NCBI RefSeq assembly: GCF_041821065.1
Contig: NZ_JBGUAX010000009.1
Span: 124,001 to 188,000 of the forward strand
Direction of reading: 5' to 3'
Source of the DNA: Egicoccus sp. AB-alg2
GTDB taxonomy: Bacteria; Actinomycetota; Nitriliruptoria; Nitriliruptorales; Nitriliruptoraceae
DNA length: 64,000 nt
The notes below the pieces were generated by a model, which saw only the letters and a program-made list of their open reading frames with translations, was not told the DNA's origin and made no database searches. Shown piece by piece: positions 20,359 to 24,882 of this stretch (position 1 is its first letter; each line of letters begins with the position of its first letter). Position numbers and translations under genes: made by a program.

Positions 20359-20865
20359 TCAGGGCAGGTCGACGTCGCCGGAGCGCCCGCCCGTCTTGCG
20401 GCGGAGACGGACGTCGGTGATGACCACGTCGCGTTGCACCGCCTTGACCAGGTCGTAGAGCGTCAGCGACGCCACGCTCACCGCGGTCATCGCCTCCATC
20501 TCCACGCCGGTGCGGTCAGCAGCCCGTGCCGTGGCAGTCACCACCGCGACGCCCGCCGACGCGTCGACGTCCACCTCGACCTCGACGGACGTGAGGGCGA
20601 TGCCGTGGCACAGCGGGATCAGCTCGGGCGTGCGCTTGGCCGCCTGGATGCCCGCGATGCGCACCACCGGCAGCGCGTCCCCCTTCGGCAGGTCGCCGGC
20701 CAGCAGGCGTGCCGCCACGTCGGGTCGCATGTGGACCCGGGCCTCGGCGACGGCGGTGCGCTGGGTGACGGCCTTGTCCCCGACGTCGACCATGCGGGCC
20801 TGCCCACGGGCGTCGAGGTGGGTGAGGCCCTCCGGATCACCACCGGACCCGCCGGGGGCGGTCAT
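20359..20865 (-). CDS. moaC: Cyclic pyranopterin monophosphate synthase
   Basis: 168 residues, normal length. MoaC makes cPMP from the 3',8-cyclo-GTP product of MoaA in molybdenum cofactor synthesis. Characteristic stretches: GLTHLDARGQARMVDVGDK, GDLPKGDALPVVRIAGIQAA, KRTPELIPLCHGIALT and GVEMEAMTAVSVASLTLYD, all in order with the conserved His-Cys-His region intact. The ATG overlaps the moeA stop (ATGA); moaC is last in a galU-moeA-moaC operon. moaA is not in this window. Confidence 0.96.
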   Translation of the reverse strand: MTAPGGSGGDPEGLTHLDARGQARMVDVGDKAVTQRTAVAEARVHMRPDVAARLLAGDLPKGDALPVVRIAGIQAAKRTPELIPLCHGIALTSVEVEVDVDASAGVAVVTATARAADRTGVEMEAMTAVSVASLTLYDLVKAVQRDVVITDVRLRRKTGGRSGDVDLP

Positions 20866-22124
20866 CCGTCGACCAGCAGCTGGACACGGACCTGCTCGCC
20901 GGCCGCGATCGCGTCGCGGTCCTCGGGCACCACCGCGAGCCCGTCCGCGGACGAGATCGAGGTGATGACGTGCGAGCCCTGGGCGCCGGTCGGCGTGGCG
21001 GCCCAGCCCTCCGCGCCGCGCGCGAGCCGTACCCGCACGAAGTGGCGCTTGTTCGGGGCGCCGCGCAGCTCCTCGGTGGCGCGGGCGGTGACCGTCGGCC
21101 GCGTGAGGTCCCGCCGGCCCTGCATGCGACGGATGGCCGGACGCACGAACACCTCGAACGACACGAACGCCGACACCGGGTTGCCGGGCAGGCCGATCAC
21201 CGGGGTCTGGCCGATGCGGCCACGGATCTGCGGCATCCCGGGCTTCATCGCCACCTTGGCGGTGCGGACCTCGCCCATCGCGCCGATGACGTCGGGCAGC
21301 AGGTCACGGGTGCCGGCACTGGCCCCGCCGGTGCACACGAAGAGGTCGGCGTGTCCGAGGTTGGTGTCGAAGGCGTACATCAACGCCTTGCGGTCGTCGG
21401 GCACGATCCCGGTCGTGAAGGGGATGCCACCGGCCGCCCGGACCATCGCGGCGAGCATCGGGCCGTTGGAATCGCGGATCTGGCCCGGACCCGGCTCCCG
21501 CGTCGCCTGGACGAGCTCGTCGCCGCTGGACAGCACGACCACGCGCGGGGGCGGGACGCACAGCACCCGCGGGATGCCGACGGCCGAGAGCAGGGCGATG
21601 TCGGCCGGCTGCACCCGGCGACCGGACTTCAGCAGCACCTGGCCCGGCTCGAGGTCCTCGCCGGGCCGGCGCACGTGCTCACCGGGTGCGACCGTGCGGT
21701 GGAACCCGATCTGCCCGTCGTCGCCGGACGTGGTCTCCACCGGCACGACCGCATCCGCGCCCGGCGGCAGCGGCGCCCCCGTCATGATGCGGACGACGCG
21801 CCCCGGCGCGACCTCGGGAGCCTCCGCCGCACCGGCGACGACCTCGCCCACCACGGGCAGGTGCACCGGTTCGTCGACGCGGGCATCGACCAGGTCGGCT
21901 GCCACGACGGCGTAGCCGTCCATCGCCGCGTTGGCGAAGGGCGGCAGGGTCGCGTCGCTGGTCACGTCGGCGGCCAGCACGAGCCCCAGGGCGTCGAGGA
22001 TCGTCAGCTCGATCGGGTCGGGCTGGGGCAGCGAGTCGAGGATCGCCTGCAGGTGCTCCTCGACCGGGGTCAGTTCCTGGGCCGGTGTGACCTCGTCACG
22101 GCCGTGGCCGACGAACCGCGTCAC
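20862..22124 (-). CDS. moeA: Molybdopterin molybdenumtransferase
   Basis: 420 residues, normal for MoeA. It inserts molybdate into adenylated molybdopterin. Visible are NAAMDGYAVVAADL (about 65-78), GRVVRIMTGAPLPPGADAVV, the MoCF domain segments RVVVLSSGDELV and RDSNGPMLAAMVRAAGG, the FVCTGGASAGTRDLLPDV stretch, and LPGNPVSAFVSFEVFV. GTG start overlaps the galU stop. Position in one operon with moaC fits a shared cofactor route; galU is a frequent neighbour of moeA in actinobacteria. Confidence 0.96.
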   Translation of the reverse strand: MTRFVGHGRDEVTPAQELTPVEEHLQAILDSLPQPDPIELTILDALGLVLAADVTSDATLPPFANAAMDGYAVVAADLVDARVDEPVHLPVVGEVVAGAAEAPEVAPGRVVRIMTGAPLPPGADAVVPVETTSGDDGQIGFHRTVAPGEHVRRPGEDLEPGQVLLKSGRRVQPADIALLSAVGIPRVLCVPPPRVVVLSSGDELVQATREPGPGQIRDSNGPMLAAMVRAAGGIPFTTGIVPDDRKALMYAFDTNLGHADLFVCTGGASAGTRDLLPDVIGAMGEVRTAKVAMKPGMPQIRGRIGQTPVIGLPGNPVSAFVSFEVFVRPAIRRMQGRRDLTRPTVTARATEELRGAPNKRHFVRVRLARGAEGWAATPTGAQGSHVITSISSADGLAVVPEDRDAIAAGEQVRVQLLVDG

Positions 22125-22999
22125 GCCTCACGCTCCTCGATCCAGGCGCGCAGCCACTCCAGGAACTCCTTGCCGAGATCCTCACGCTGCGCCGCGATCT
22201 GGACCGTCGCCTTCAGGAAGCCCAGCTTGTCCCCGGTGTCGTAGCGCTCGGCGTCCAGACGGATGCCGATGATCGGCTCGTCCGCCGCCATCGTCTGCAG
22301 CGCGTCCGTGAGTTGGATCTCGTCGCCGCGGCCGGGTGGCGTCTCGTGCAGGACGTCGAAGATGGCGCCGGGCAGCACGTAGCGGCCCACCACGATCAGG
22401 TTGGAGGGCGCCTCGTCGACCGGCGGCTTCTCCACGAGCCGGTGCACGAGGAACTCGCCGTCCCGCTCGCCCGGCTCGACGTCCGCCACGCCGTAGAGGT
22501 GCACCTGGTCGGACGGCACCTCCATCAGCGCGACCACCGGGCGACCCGTGCGGTCGTGCGCCTCCAGCATCCGTTCCAGGAACGGCTCGTGCGGGTCGAT
22601 GATGTCGTCGCCGAGCAGGACGGCGAAGCTCTCCTCGGCCGCCACGTGGCCGGCCGCCATCAGCACGGCGTGCCCCAGTCCGAGCGGTTCGCCCTGCCGG
22701 ATGCTGTGGATCTGTGCGAGGTGGGCGAGGTCGCGGACGGCGGTCAGCTCGTCCTGCTTGCCCTTGTCCGCCAGCGCCGCCTCCAGGTCCAGTCGCCGGT
22801 CGAAGTGGTCCTCGATCTCGCCTTTGCCCGAGCCCGTCACGAGCAACACGTCGTCGAGTCCTGCGCGCACGCACTCTTCCACGATGTACTGGATCGCGGG
22901 CCGGTCCACCAGCGGCATCATCTCCTTCGGCACGGCCTTGGTCGCCGGCAGGAAGCGGGTGCCGAGACCGGCGACGGGGAGGACGGCCTTGCGGACCAT
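22121..22999 (-). CDS. galU: UTP-glucose-1-phosphate uridylyltransferase
   Basis: 292 residues. Makes UDP-glucose from UTP and glucose-1-phosphate for envelope glycans and other sugar nucleotides. N-terminal nucleotide-binding VLPVAGLGTRFLPATKAVPK (about 6-25), then the conserved region around ECVRAGLDDVLLVTG, and VEKPPVDEAPSNL followed by GRYVLP. A GAGGAG site precedes the ATG at 22999, and TAGGCT (23041-23036) about 36 bases further up is a probable -10 box. First gene of the galU-moeA-moaC operon. Confidence 0.96.
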   Translation of the reverse strand: MVRKAVLPVAGLGTRFLPATKAVPKEMMPLVDRPAIQYIVEECVRAGLDDVLLVTGSGKGEIEDHFDRRLDLEAALADKGKQDELTAVRDLAHLAQIHSIRQGEPLGLGHAVLMAAGHVAAEESFAVLLGDDIIDPHEPFLERMLEAHDRTGRPVVALMEVPSDQVHLYGVADVEPGERDGEFLVHRLVEKPPVDEAPSNLIVVGRYVLPGAIFDVLHETPPGRGDEIQLTDALQTMAADEPIIGIRLDAERYDTGDKLGFLKATVQIAAQREDLGKEFLEWLRAWIEEREA

Positions 23000-23117: not shown

Positions 23118-23690
23118 GTGTCGGCCACCACGAAGACGGCCCTGCGGGCGTCCGCGCGCGCCGCCCGTGCCGCCCTGTCGCCTGTCGAACGCAACGAGGC
23201 ATCGGCGCAGGTGGTCGCCCGCCTCGAGCGCATGCCGGAGCTGCGCCGGGCCCGGACGGTGGTCCTCTACGCGGCGACGCGCGACGAGGCGGATCCCGGG
23301 GGACTCCTGCCCCACCTGCTGCGGCGCGGGGTGCGCACCCTCTTCCCCCGTGTTCGTGGCGAGCACCTGGAGCTGGTGGCCGCGTCCGATCTGGCTGCCC
23401 TGCAACTCGGCTACCGGGGCATCACCGAGCCCGTGGGGCCGGCGGTCGATCCAGAGGTCGTCGACGTCGTGCTGGTCCCAGGGGTGGCCTTCGACCCAGC
23501 CGGTGGTCGGCTGGGGCAGGGCGGCGGCCACTACGACCGGCTCCTGGGCCGGCTGCCGCGGCACGCGACGCGGATCGGCGTGTGCTTCTCGTGCCAGGTC
23601 GTCCCCCGGGTGCCGCGCGAGGCCCACGACGTGGCGGTCGACGTGGTCGTCACCGAGCGCGTCACCCACCGCGTCGATGCCCGGCGCTGA
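23118..23690 (+). CDS. 5-formyltetrahydrofolate cyclo-ligase
   Basis: 190 residues from a GTG with GAGG upstream. It converts 5-formyl-THF to 5,10-methenyl-THF using ATP. The diagnostic C-terminal motif GGRLGQGGGHYDRLL is present near 134-148, preceded by LVPGVAFDP. The N-terminus ATTKTALRASARAARAALSP is the usual start helix. Divergent from galU with a 118-base shared gap. Confidence 0.93.
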   Translation: MSATTKTALRASARAARAALSPVERNEASAQVVARLERMPELRRARTVVLYAATRDEADPGGLLPHLLRRGVRTLFPRVRGEHLELVAASDLAALQLGYRGITEPVGPAVDPEVVDVVLVPGVAFDPAGGRLGQGGGHYDRLLGRLPRHATRIGVCFSCQVVPRVPREAHDVAVDVVVTERVTHRVDARR

Positions 23691-23714: not shown

Positions 23715-23743
23715 TTGCGGTTGCGTCCGCCCTGCGGCAAAAT
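23715..23743 (+). promoter_or_regulatory. Promoter of the fmdB-like gene
   Basis: TTGCGG (23715-23720), 17-base spacer, CAAAAT (23738-23743). The last base of the -10 box is the first base of the CIRCE element, so repressor binding would cover the transcription start. Confidence 0.6.
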
Positions 23744-23769
23744 CAGCACTCGCCCCTGCCGAGTGCTAA
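23743..23769 (+). promoter_or_regulatory. CIRCE operator (HrcA-binding site)
   Basis: TCAGCACTC (23743-23751), exactly 9 bases, then GAGTGCTAA (23761-23769). The CIRCE consensus is TTAGCACTC-N9-GAGTGCTAA, so only one base differs. CIRCE normally controls groESL and dnaK operons through HrcA. Here it precedes a small zinc-ribbon gene, 35 bases before its ATG. Confidence 0.88.
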
Positions 23770-23804: not shown

Positions 23805-24146
23805 ATGCCCACCTACGAGTACGCCTGCCGTGACTGTGGCGAGCACCTCGAGGTCGTGCAGTCGTTCAAGGACGACGCGCTGACCGAGTGCCCGGCCTGC
23901 CACGGCTCCCTGCGCAAGGTCTTCAGTGCCGCCGGCCTCATCTTCAAGGGCTCGGGCTGGCACGTGAAGGACTACGCCGGGTCCTCGAAGAGTTCGAGCA
24001 GCCGCGGTTCGTCGTCGGAGTCGTCCGACGGCGGGTCGTCGAAGGGCTCGTCGGAGTCGTCCGGCTCCTCGTCGTCCGGCTCGTCGTCCTCGAGCTCGTC
24101 CGGCTCGTCGTCGTCGAGTTCGTCCGGTGAGGCCAAGAGCGCCTGA
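23805..24146 (+). CDS. FmdB-type zinc ribbon protein with Ser/Gly-rich tail
   Basis: 113 residues. The N-terminal FmdB zinc ribbon MPTYEYACRDCGEHLEV has its second Cys pair in TECPACHG (about 28-35), giving the four zinc ligands. Residues about 60-113 are almost only Ser and Gly with a few acidic residues and Lys, a low-complexity tail encoded by tcg/tcc repeats. FmdB-type proteins are small putative regulators of unclear role. Controlled by a CIRCE element and ended by its own terminator, so a single-gene heat-shock unit. The gap to the SAF-domain gene downstream is 79 bases. Confidence 0.88.
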   Translation: MPTYEYACRDCGEHLEVVQSFKDDALTECPACHGSLRKVFSAAGLIFKGSGWHVKDYAGSSKSSSSRGSSSESSDGGSSKGSSESSGSSSSGSSSSSSSGSSSSSSSGEAKSA

Positions 24147-24172
24147 CGCGCCCCCGCGAACGGCTGTCCACA

Positions 24173-24207
24173 ACGCGCCTGCGATCCATCCGGACGCAGG
24201 CGCGTTC
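24173..24207 (+). terminator. Terminator after fmdB-like gene
   Basis: Perfect 12-bp stem AACGCGCCTGCG / CGCAGGCGCGTT with an 11-base loop, 26 bases past the stop codon. It is followed by only a weak T-containing tail (cgcttgc). Confidence 0.65.
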
Positions 24208-24225
24208 GCTTGCTCAGCTGGGTAC

Positions 24226-24882
24226 ATGCGACCTCCCGAAGCCTCCCGCGTCCGCCCGCCCCGTTTCGTGCCGAGCCTCGACGGCACGCCAGCGGCGCTG
24301 CCCCGCTCGCTCGACGCCCTCAGCGAGCGTTGGTTCCGGGCCGGCCCCCGCCTACGGCTGGCCCTCGTCGTCGCCCTGCTGGTGCTGGCCGCGACCGGCT
24401 ACGTGGCCCGCATCACCACCTCACCGTGGGGCGCCCCCACGCCGGTGCTCGTGGCGGGAGCCGACCTCGCGCAGGGGCAGGACCTGCGGGCCCAGGACGT
24501 GCAGCGCGCGCGCTGGCCGGCCGACCTCGTGCCGTCGGACGCGGTGCTCGACGTCAGCGACGCCCGCCTGGCGACCGCCGTGCCGGCCGGCACCGTGCTG
24601 ACGGCCCGGCACCTCGCCTCCGGGGGCGTCGCCGGTGCGCTCGCCGACGACCAGGCCGCCGTCGCCGTTCCCCGTGAGCTGCTGCCGAGGATTCCGGCCG
24701 GGTCGCGCGTGGACCTCGTCGGCGCCGCCAGCGACGGCACGGCCAACGTCCTGGCCGGCGACGTCCCCGTGTTGCGCGTGGACACCGACGACGCCTGGGT
24801 CGCCGTCCCGCGCGCCGACGCCGCCGCCGTCGCGGGTGCGGCCGCCGTCGGCGCGCTGACCGCGGTGCTGCTCCCGCCCTGA
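24226..24882 (+). CDS. SAF domain protein (CpaB/RcpC-like)
   Basis: 218 residues. A basic N-terminus, one transmembrane helix (LRLALVVALLVLAATGYVA, about 44-62), then an extracytoplasmic SAF domain (VLVAGADLAQGQDLRAQDVQ, about 73-92, and VPAGTVLTARHL) and a C-terminal CpaB-like part with PRIPAGSRVDLVG. SAF domains occur in CpaB of Flp pilus systems and in antifreeze-like folds. Beside fmdB in many actinobacteria, usually without other pilus genes, as here. Role unknown. Confidence 0.82.
   Translation: MRPPEASRVRPPRFVPSLDGTPAALPRSLDALSERWFRAGPRLRLALVVALLVLAATGYVARITTSPWGAPTPVLVAGADLAQGQDLRAQDVQRARWPADLVPSDAVLDVSDARLATAVPAGTVLTARHLASGGVAGALADDQAAVAVPRELLPRIPAGSRVDLVGAASDGTANVLAGDVPVLRVDTDDAWVAVPRADAAAVAGAAAVGALTAVLLPP

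Follow-up and report, generated by a model that had tools for sequence, protein, structure and literature searches.

A CIRCE operator stood in front of a gene for an FmdB-family zinc-ribbon protein in the window, the whole 64 kb stretch of DNA that we analysed. We consider it very probable that this gene was an actinobacterial orthologue of ruc (Rv0991c) of Mycobacterium tuberculosis, that it was under HrcA/CIRCE control and that its product was a redox-activated chaperone. This reading was supported by a CIRCE match far above chance, by the presence of hrcA and of a groESL CIRCE in the same genome, by the conservation of the CIRCE-fmdB pair and by the spacing of the cysteines. As a further case of HrcA-controlled Ruc, the locus was well founded but largely unremarkable. 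Its main features were as follows.

23715..23743, + strand: promoter-like element TTGCGG - 17 bp - CAAAAT, read from the sequence and compared in an alignment to 14 members of the family
23743..23769, + strand: CIRCE operator (predicted HrcA site), 17/18 positions, spacer 9, kept in 15/22 family loci
23805..24146, + strand: FmdB-family (Ruc-like) zinc-ribbon protein, 113 aa (TIGR02605 and PF09723)
about 24169..24208, + strand: stable GC hairpin, possible terminator (fold z -4.7 over 24155-24220, 0/200 shuffles equally stable)

The FmdB/Ruc-like protein

In the profile search, the product of the fmdB gene matched TIGR02605 with 73.5 bits (cut-off 31.3, 1e-20) and PF09723 with 1.9e-16, and the NCBIfam model matched by the protein bears the name CxxC_CxxC_SSSS. 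The cysteines C8, C11, C29 and C32 formed a CxxC-N17-CxxC zinc ribbon at residues 8-32. The tail was 55 aa long and contained 36 Ser and 9 Gly (82% Ser+Gly), ending in AKSA; judged from its composition, it was hydrophilic and probably disordered. A sequence search found no solved structure of a relative.

It has previously been reported that Rv0991c, named Ruc, is an HrcA-repressed, heat-induced and redox-activated chaperone of M. tuberculosis (Becker et al. 2020, PMC7448276). According to the same paper, a temperature of 45 deg C and mutation of hrcA each led to a strong rise in Ruc, SigH also drives the gene, and the HrcA operator overlaps the SigH promoter (PMC7448276). The protein is disordered and binds one zinc via its cysteines, in the pairs C8/C11 and C29/C32; oxidised Ruc prevented aggregation and helped refolding by Hsp70, and a truncated form without the tail was unable to prevent aggregation (PMC7448276). 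Moreover, Ruc homologues were located in chaperone loci of many phyla (PMC7448276). An identical list of HrcA targets was given in PMC8223512, the target was described as the rv0991c-rv0990c operon in PMC8557902, and Rv0991c was reported as a SigH-induced gene and termed a conserved serine rich protein in PMC4803200.

The window locus shared with Ruc the zinc-ribbon cysteines at 8, 11, 29 and 32 (Ruc positions from PMC7448276), the disordered Ser-rich tail, the HrcA operator at the promoter and an HrcA regulon consisting of the groE genes and the ruc/fmdB gene. It differed from Ruc in three respects. Namely, the window promoter was sigma-70-like with no visible SigH promoter, the gene looked monocistronic and was followed by a SAF-domain gene whereas M. 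tuberculosis had the rv0991c-rv0990c operon (PMC8557902), and the end of the tail was not the AAAAV of Ruc (read from a primer in PMC7448276). A likeness in principle was also seen to the redox-regulated holdase Hsp33, which has four zinc-binding cysteines and is activated by oxidation (as described in PMC7448276). However, Hsp33 was unrelated in sequence, and the window protein matched only TIGR02605/PF09723.

The initial annotation regarded the CIRCE-fmdB pair as unexpected and the role of FmdB as unknown. The pair was in fact already known as HrcA-controlled Ruc (PMC7448276, PMC8223512, PMC8557902), and the orthologue was a characterised redox-activated chaperone (PMC7448276), a function that was masked by the generic label "FmdB family zinc ribbon protein". 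Since the words CIRCE and FmdB were absent from the Ruc paper (PMC7448276), the pair would look new to a reader who starts from those names; our literature search, which combined FmdB with either CIRCE or HrcA, yielded no paper other than the Ruc work. A heat-shock or protein-quality function, as suggested in the annotation, was the right direction according to the Ruc orthologue. The suggestion of a phase-forming tail was not supported, and in M. tuberculosis the tail was needed for chaperone activity.

It was unlikely that the operator was functional but the protein was not a Ruc-like chaperone and acted otherwise, perhaps by serving as an adaptor for nucleic acids or proteins, and was merely heat-induced. 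The FmdB families were broad and their paralogues differed, as in the case of L061, which had a different tail and no CIRCE, and this left some room for such a role. However, both the cysteine positions and the Ser-rich tail of the window protein matched Ruc, for which chaperone activity was demonstrated, and the galU/5-FTHF cyclo-ligase neighbourhood recurred in other Actinomycetota.

The paralogue L061 (G000:C7:281070-281219) was a second FmdB-like protein of the same genome; it had 84 aa, and its tail, RTDGFVPDRPGRGDFRTVRERAERIADGDT, was charged rather than Ser-rich. Its gene had no CIRCE upstream and its product had no NCBIfam match. Because a similar tail was kept in the relatives L060, L062 and L063, the L061 type formed a distinct conserved subfamily.

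The operator and its probable repressor

The operator on the + strand read TCAGCACTC-GCCCCTGCC-GAGTGCTAA and had 1 mismatch to the consensus TTAGCACTC-N9-GAGTGCTAA. Thus, the pattern search bore out the initial annotation, which had noted a 17 of 18 match with the exact 9-base spacer. This was the sole match at <=3 mismatches in the 64 kb of the window, and 100 shuffles gave 0 matches. When the search was extended to the whole genome (4.84 Mb on 29 contigs), it gave 2 matches at <=3 mismatches, namely the fmdB site with 1 mismatch and a site at C3:58458 with 3 mismatches. By chance, 0.00026 matches at <=1 mismatch were expected in 4.84 Mb according to an independent-base estimate at 72.8% GC. 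The shuffles and the genome-wide count led us to reject a chance match, and the CIRCE in front of the FmdB gene was confirmed as a real observation. Even if the chance reading is widened to let the palindrome belong to something else, be it a hairpin in the mRNA or the operator of a different regulator, it was hardly credible, since the palindrome, although it can also fold as an RNA hairpin, far exceeded the chance expectation, had the groESL CIRCE as its sole company in the genome, and kept both arms at the exact 9-base spacing across genera while the 9-base loop was free to vary.

The proposal of HrcA control in the initial annotation depended on a repressor gene and invited a search for other CIRCE sites. 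One clear hrcA was present in the genome (PF01628 1.4e-50; TIGR00331 285 bits, cut-off 197), with dnaJ located directly after it. The second CIRCE match was the first of two tandem CIRCE-like palindromes at C3:58459 and 58494. This tandem pair was located ~200 bp before the GroES gene (NCBIfam NF001530, 153 bits), which was followed by the single groEL detected in the genome, and other CIRCE sites were found only there. In particular, no CIRCE was found before hrcA(-dnaJ) at <=3 mismatches. In comparison to CIRCE/HrcA control of groESL, the operator architecture and the repressor were the same, whereas the target in the window was a small zinc-ribbon protein rather than a chaperonin, and fmdB had a single CIRCE where groES had two in tandem. 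An alternative stress circuit through HspR/HAIR was also considered and rejected: the HAIR pattern matched once, at 2 mismatches, whereas its reversed control matched 14 times, so that nowhere in the genome did HAIR sites exceed the control.

The annotation also placed the operator over the promoter. TTGCGG at 23715 was followed after 17 bp by CAAAAT at 23738-23743, and the final T of this -10-like hexamer was base 1 of CIRCE. When the 15 CIRCE-bearing family members were aligned on CIRCE, TTGC and a CGGCA[TA]CA-like -10 region stood at a constant offset in most of them, and the 9-base loop and the flanks were variable. Accordingly, the overlap with the promoter was borne out as an overlap with a promoter-like stretch conserved in most CIRCE-bearing relatives. 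We infer from this conservation that 23715-23743 may serve as a promoter; a strict generic sigma-70 scan called none at these positions. Visual inspection of 50 bp of upstream sequence showed no GGAA-type -35 (SigH). At the other end of the gene, the terminator named in the annotation corresponded to a GC hairpin that was very stable (z -4.7) but had no clear U-tract, and a terminator scan called nothing 3' of fmdB. A role of this hairpin as a terminator was plausible.

For the window gene as an HrcA-controlled ruc orthologue, repression, heat induction, zinc binding, redox switching and chaperone activity would be expected from M. tuberculosis; for the redox and chaperone functions, the model is thus an orthologue that belongs to another class. 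HrcA, encoded elsewhere beside dnaJ, would bind the CIRCE spanning the presumed start site and, as long as the cell is not stressed, would block RNA polymerase at fmdB. Stress that unfolds proteins, such as heat, would inactivate HrcA; in M. tuberculosis, HrcA is removed by the proteasome. The general model of HrcA inactivation is titration of GroEL. Upon release of HrcA, fmdB would be expressed together with groES-groEL. The FmdB protein would hold zinc through its four cysteines, oxidation would lead to disulphides and zinc release, and the disordered Ser/Gly tail would then keep unfolded client proteins bound until the Hsp70 system takes them over.

Conservation of the pair and its gene neighbourhood

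In a survey of the class, we collected fmdB orthologues and looked for CIRCE at <=3 mismatches in the 250 bp upstream. In the window's own family, 15/22 fmdB loci had a CIRCE whose distance to the start was 25-110 bp (200 shuffles each, none matching), a count that depends, like the others here, on the 250-300 bp search window and on ungapped N9 spacing. These sites mostly overlay the conserved promoter-like stretch and persisted despite divergent flanks and spacer bases. In the other 7/22 family loci CIRCE before fmdB was absent, and it was found in 0/22 loci across three other families of the class. The hrcA gene was present in 44/49 class genomes and a CIRCE core was found somewhere in 37/49. 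Because CIRCE-less loci occurred although hrcA was present in nearly all those genomes, HrcA control was not essential to fmdB.

Across the phylum, a strict pattern (CIRCE core, then 10-40 bases, then the start MP-T-Y-x-Y-x-C-x-x-C) was found in 21/396 genomes, and its reversed form in 0. At least 119 stretches from named genomes carried the CIRCE-fmdB pair, and among the matches listed were Streptomyces, Micromonospora, Actinoplanes, Amycolatopsis, Lentzea, Saccharothrix, Dietzia, Tsukamurella and Acidimicrobiia. Additionally, 60 further actinobacterial fmdB loci were sampled by protein score, not by CIRCE; CIRCE at <=4 mismatches was present in 12/60 of them versus 0/60 in the reversed control, and one family had it in 7/7. 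The initial annotation asked whether relatives keep the pair, and the window's own family and these other loci both contained members that did. The placement of FmdB in the HrcA regulon was thus supported by the presence of HrcA, by the CIRCE at the groESL operon and by the conservation of CIRCE-fmdB in relatives. HrcA control of the Ruc chaperone was not peculiar to mycobacteria, and the pair spanned Streptomyces, Dietzia, Tsukamurella, a separate actinobacterial class and Acidimicrobiia. The redox chaperone has probably long been wired to the GroE repressor, with repeated losses.

The genes around fmdB in the window were the following.

20862..22124, - strand: moeA/glp-like gene (MoeA_N and MoeA_C), conserved neighbour
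22121..22999, - strand: galU, UTP-glucose-1-phosphate uridylyltransferase (TIGR01099, 335 bits, over cut-off), same position in relatives
23118..23690, + strand: 5-formyltetrahydrofolate cyclo-ligase, upstream neighbour (TIGR02727, 147 bits)
24226..24882, + strand: SAF-domain (CpaB/FlgA-like) gene (PF08666), downstream, beyond the hairpin

The cyclo-ligase stop was 114 bp before fmdB, and this neighbour was kept in nearly all class loci. A moeA gene next to galU was also found near fmdB in Prauserella (L129), Tsukamurella (L172) and Acidimicrobiia (L184). The gene order around rv0991c in M. tuberculosis, which we take to include the 5-FTHF cyclo-ligase, galU and moeA, would be as in the window. 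The SAF-domain gene was a conserved neighbour as well; in most loci of the class, its position relative to fmdB was about +420 to +580.

The gap between the cyclo-ligase and fmdB had a median of 148 bp (minimum 90) in loci with CIRCE versus 78 bp in loci without it (Mann-Whitney p 0.00015, relatedness ignored). Gaps of <60 bp were present in 13/28 CIRCE-less loci and in none with CIRCE. The shorter gap suggests that CIRCE-less fmdB may often be transcribed by read-through from the cyclo-ligase neighbour.

The end of the tail

One further region was defined by the tail comparison.

24132-24143 in the window, and L005-L054 and L114-L193: tail-end tripeptide region

Tails in the family were 40-84 aa long and drifted in both length and sequence. 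In the window's order they were otherwise unalignable, but 18/22 ended in [KREQA][ST]A, compared to a frequency of 0.7% elsewhere in the same tails. The same ending was found in 12/16 tails from other families of the class (1.0% elsewhere), and [STP]A[AS] ended 46/74 tails from the named loci, mostly Streptomyces and relatives (4.1% elsewhere); in all these counts the residue classes were picked after viewing the sequences, and relatedness inflates the numbers. We tentatively suggest, as a possibility that is open to considerable doubt, that the last three residues of the tail are under constraint, maybe as a C-terminal degron or as a docking tag for another chaperone. Endings in -AA recall ClpXP signals. 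If the degron were real, stress would produce only a brief burst of the protein, with its synthesis soon followed by its degradation.

According to a published statement, the tails have no significant similarity to one another, and the conserved tail end qualifies this, at least for the last residues. We found no description of a conserved tail tripeptide, and a degron was unmentioned in the Ruc paper (PMC7448276). In one relative with a small genome (L024 1501-2697), the fmdB frame had no stop and continued into the downstream SAF-domain gene, giving a frame of 399 aa that was either a fusion or a frameshift/assembly error.
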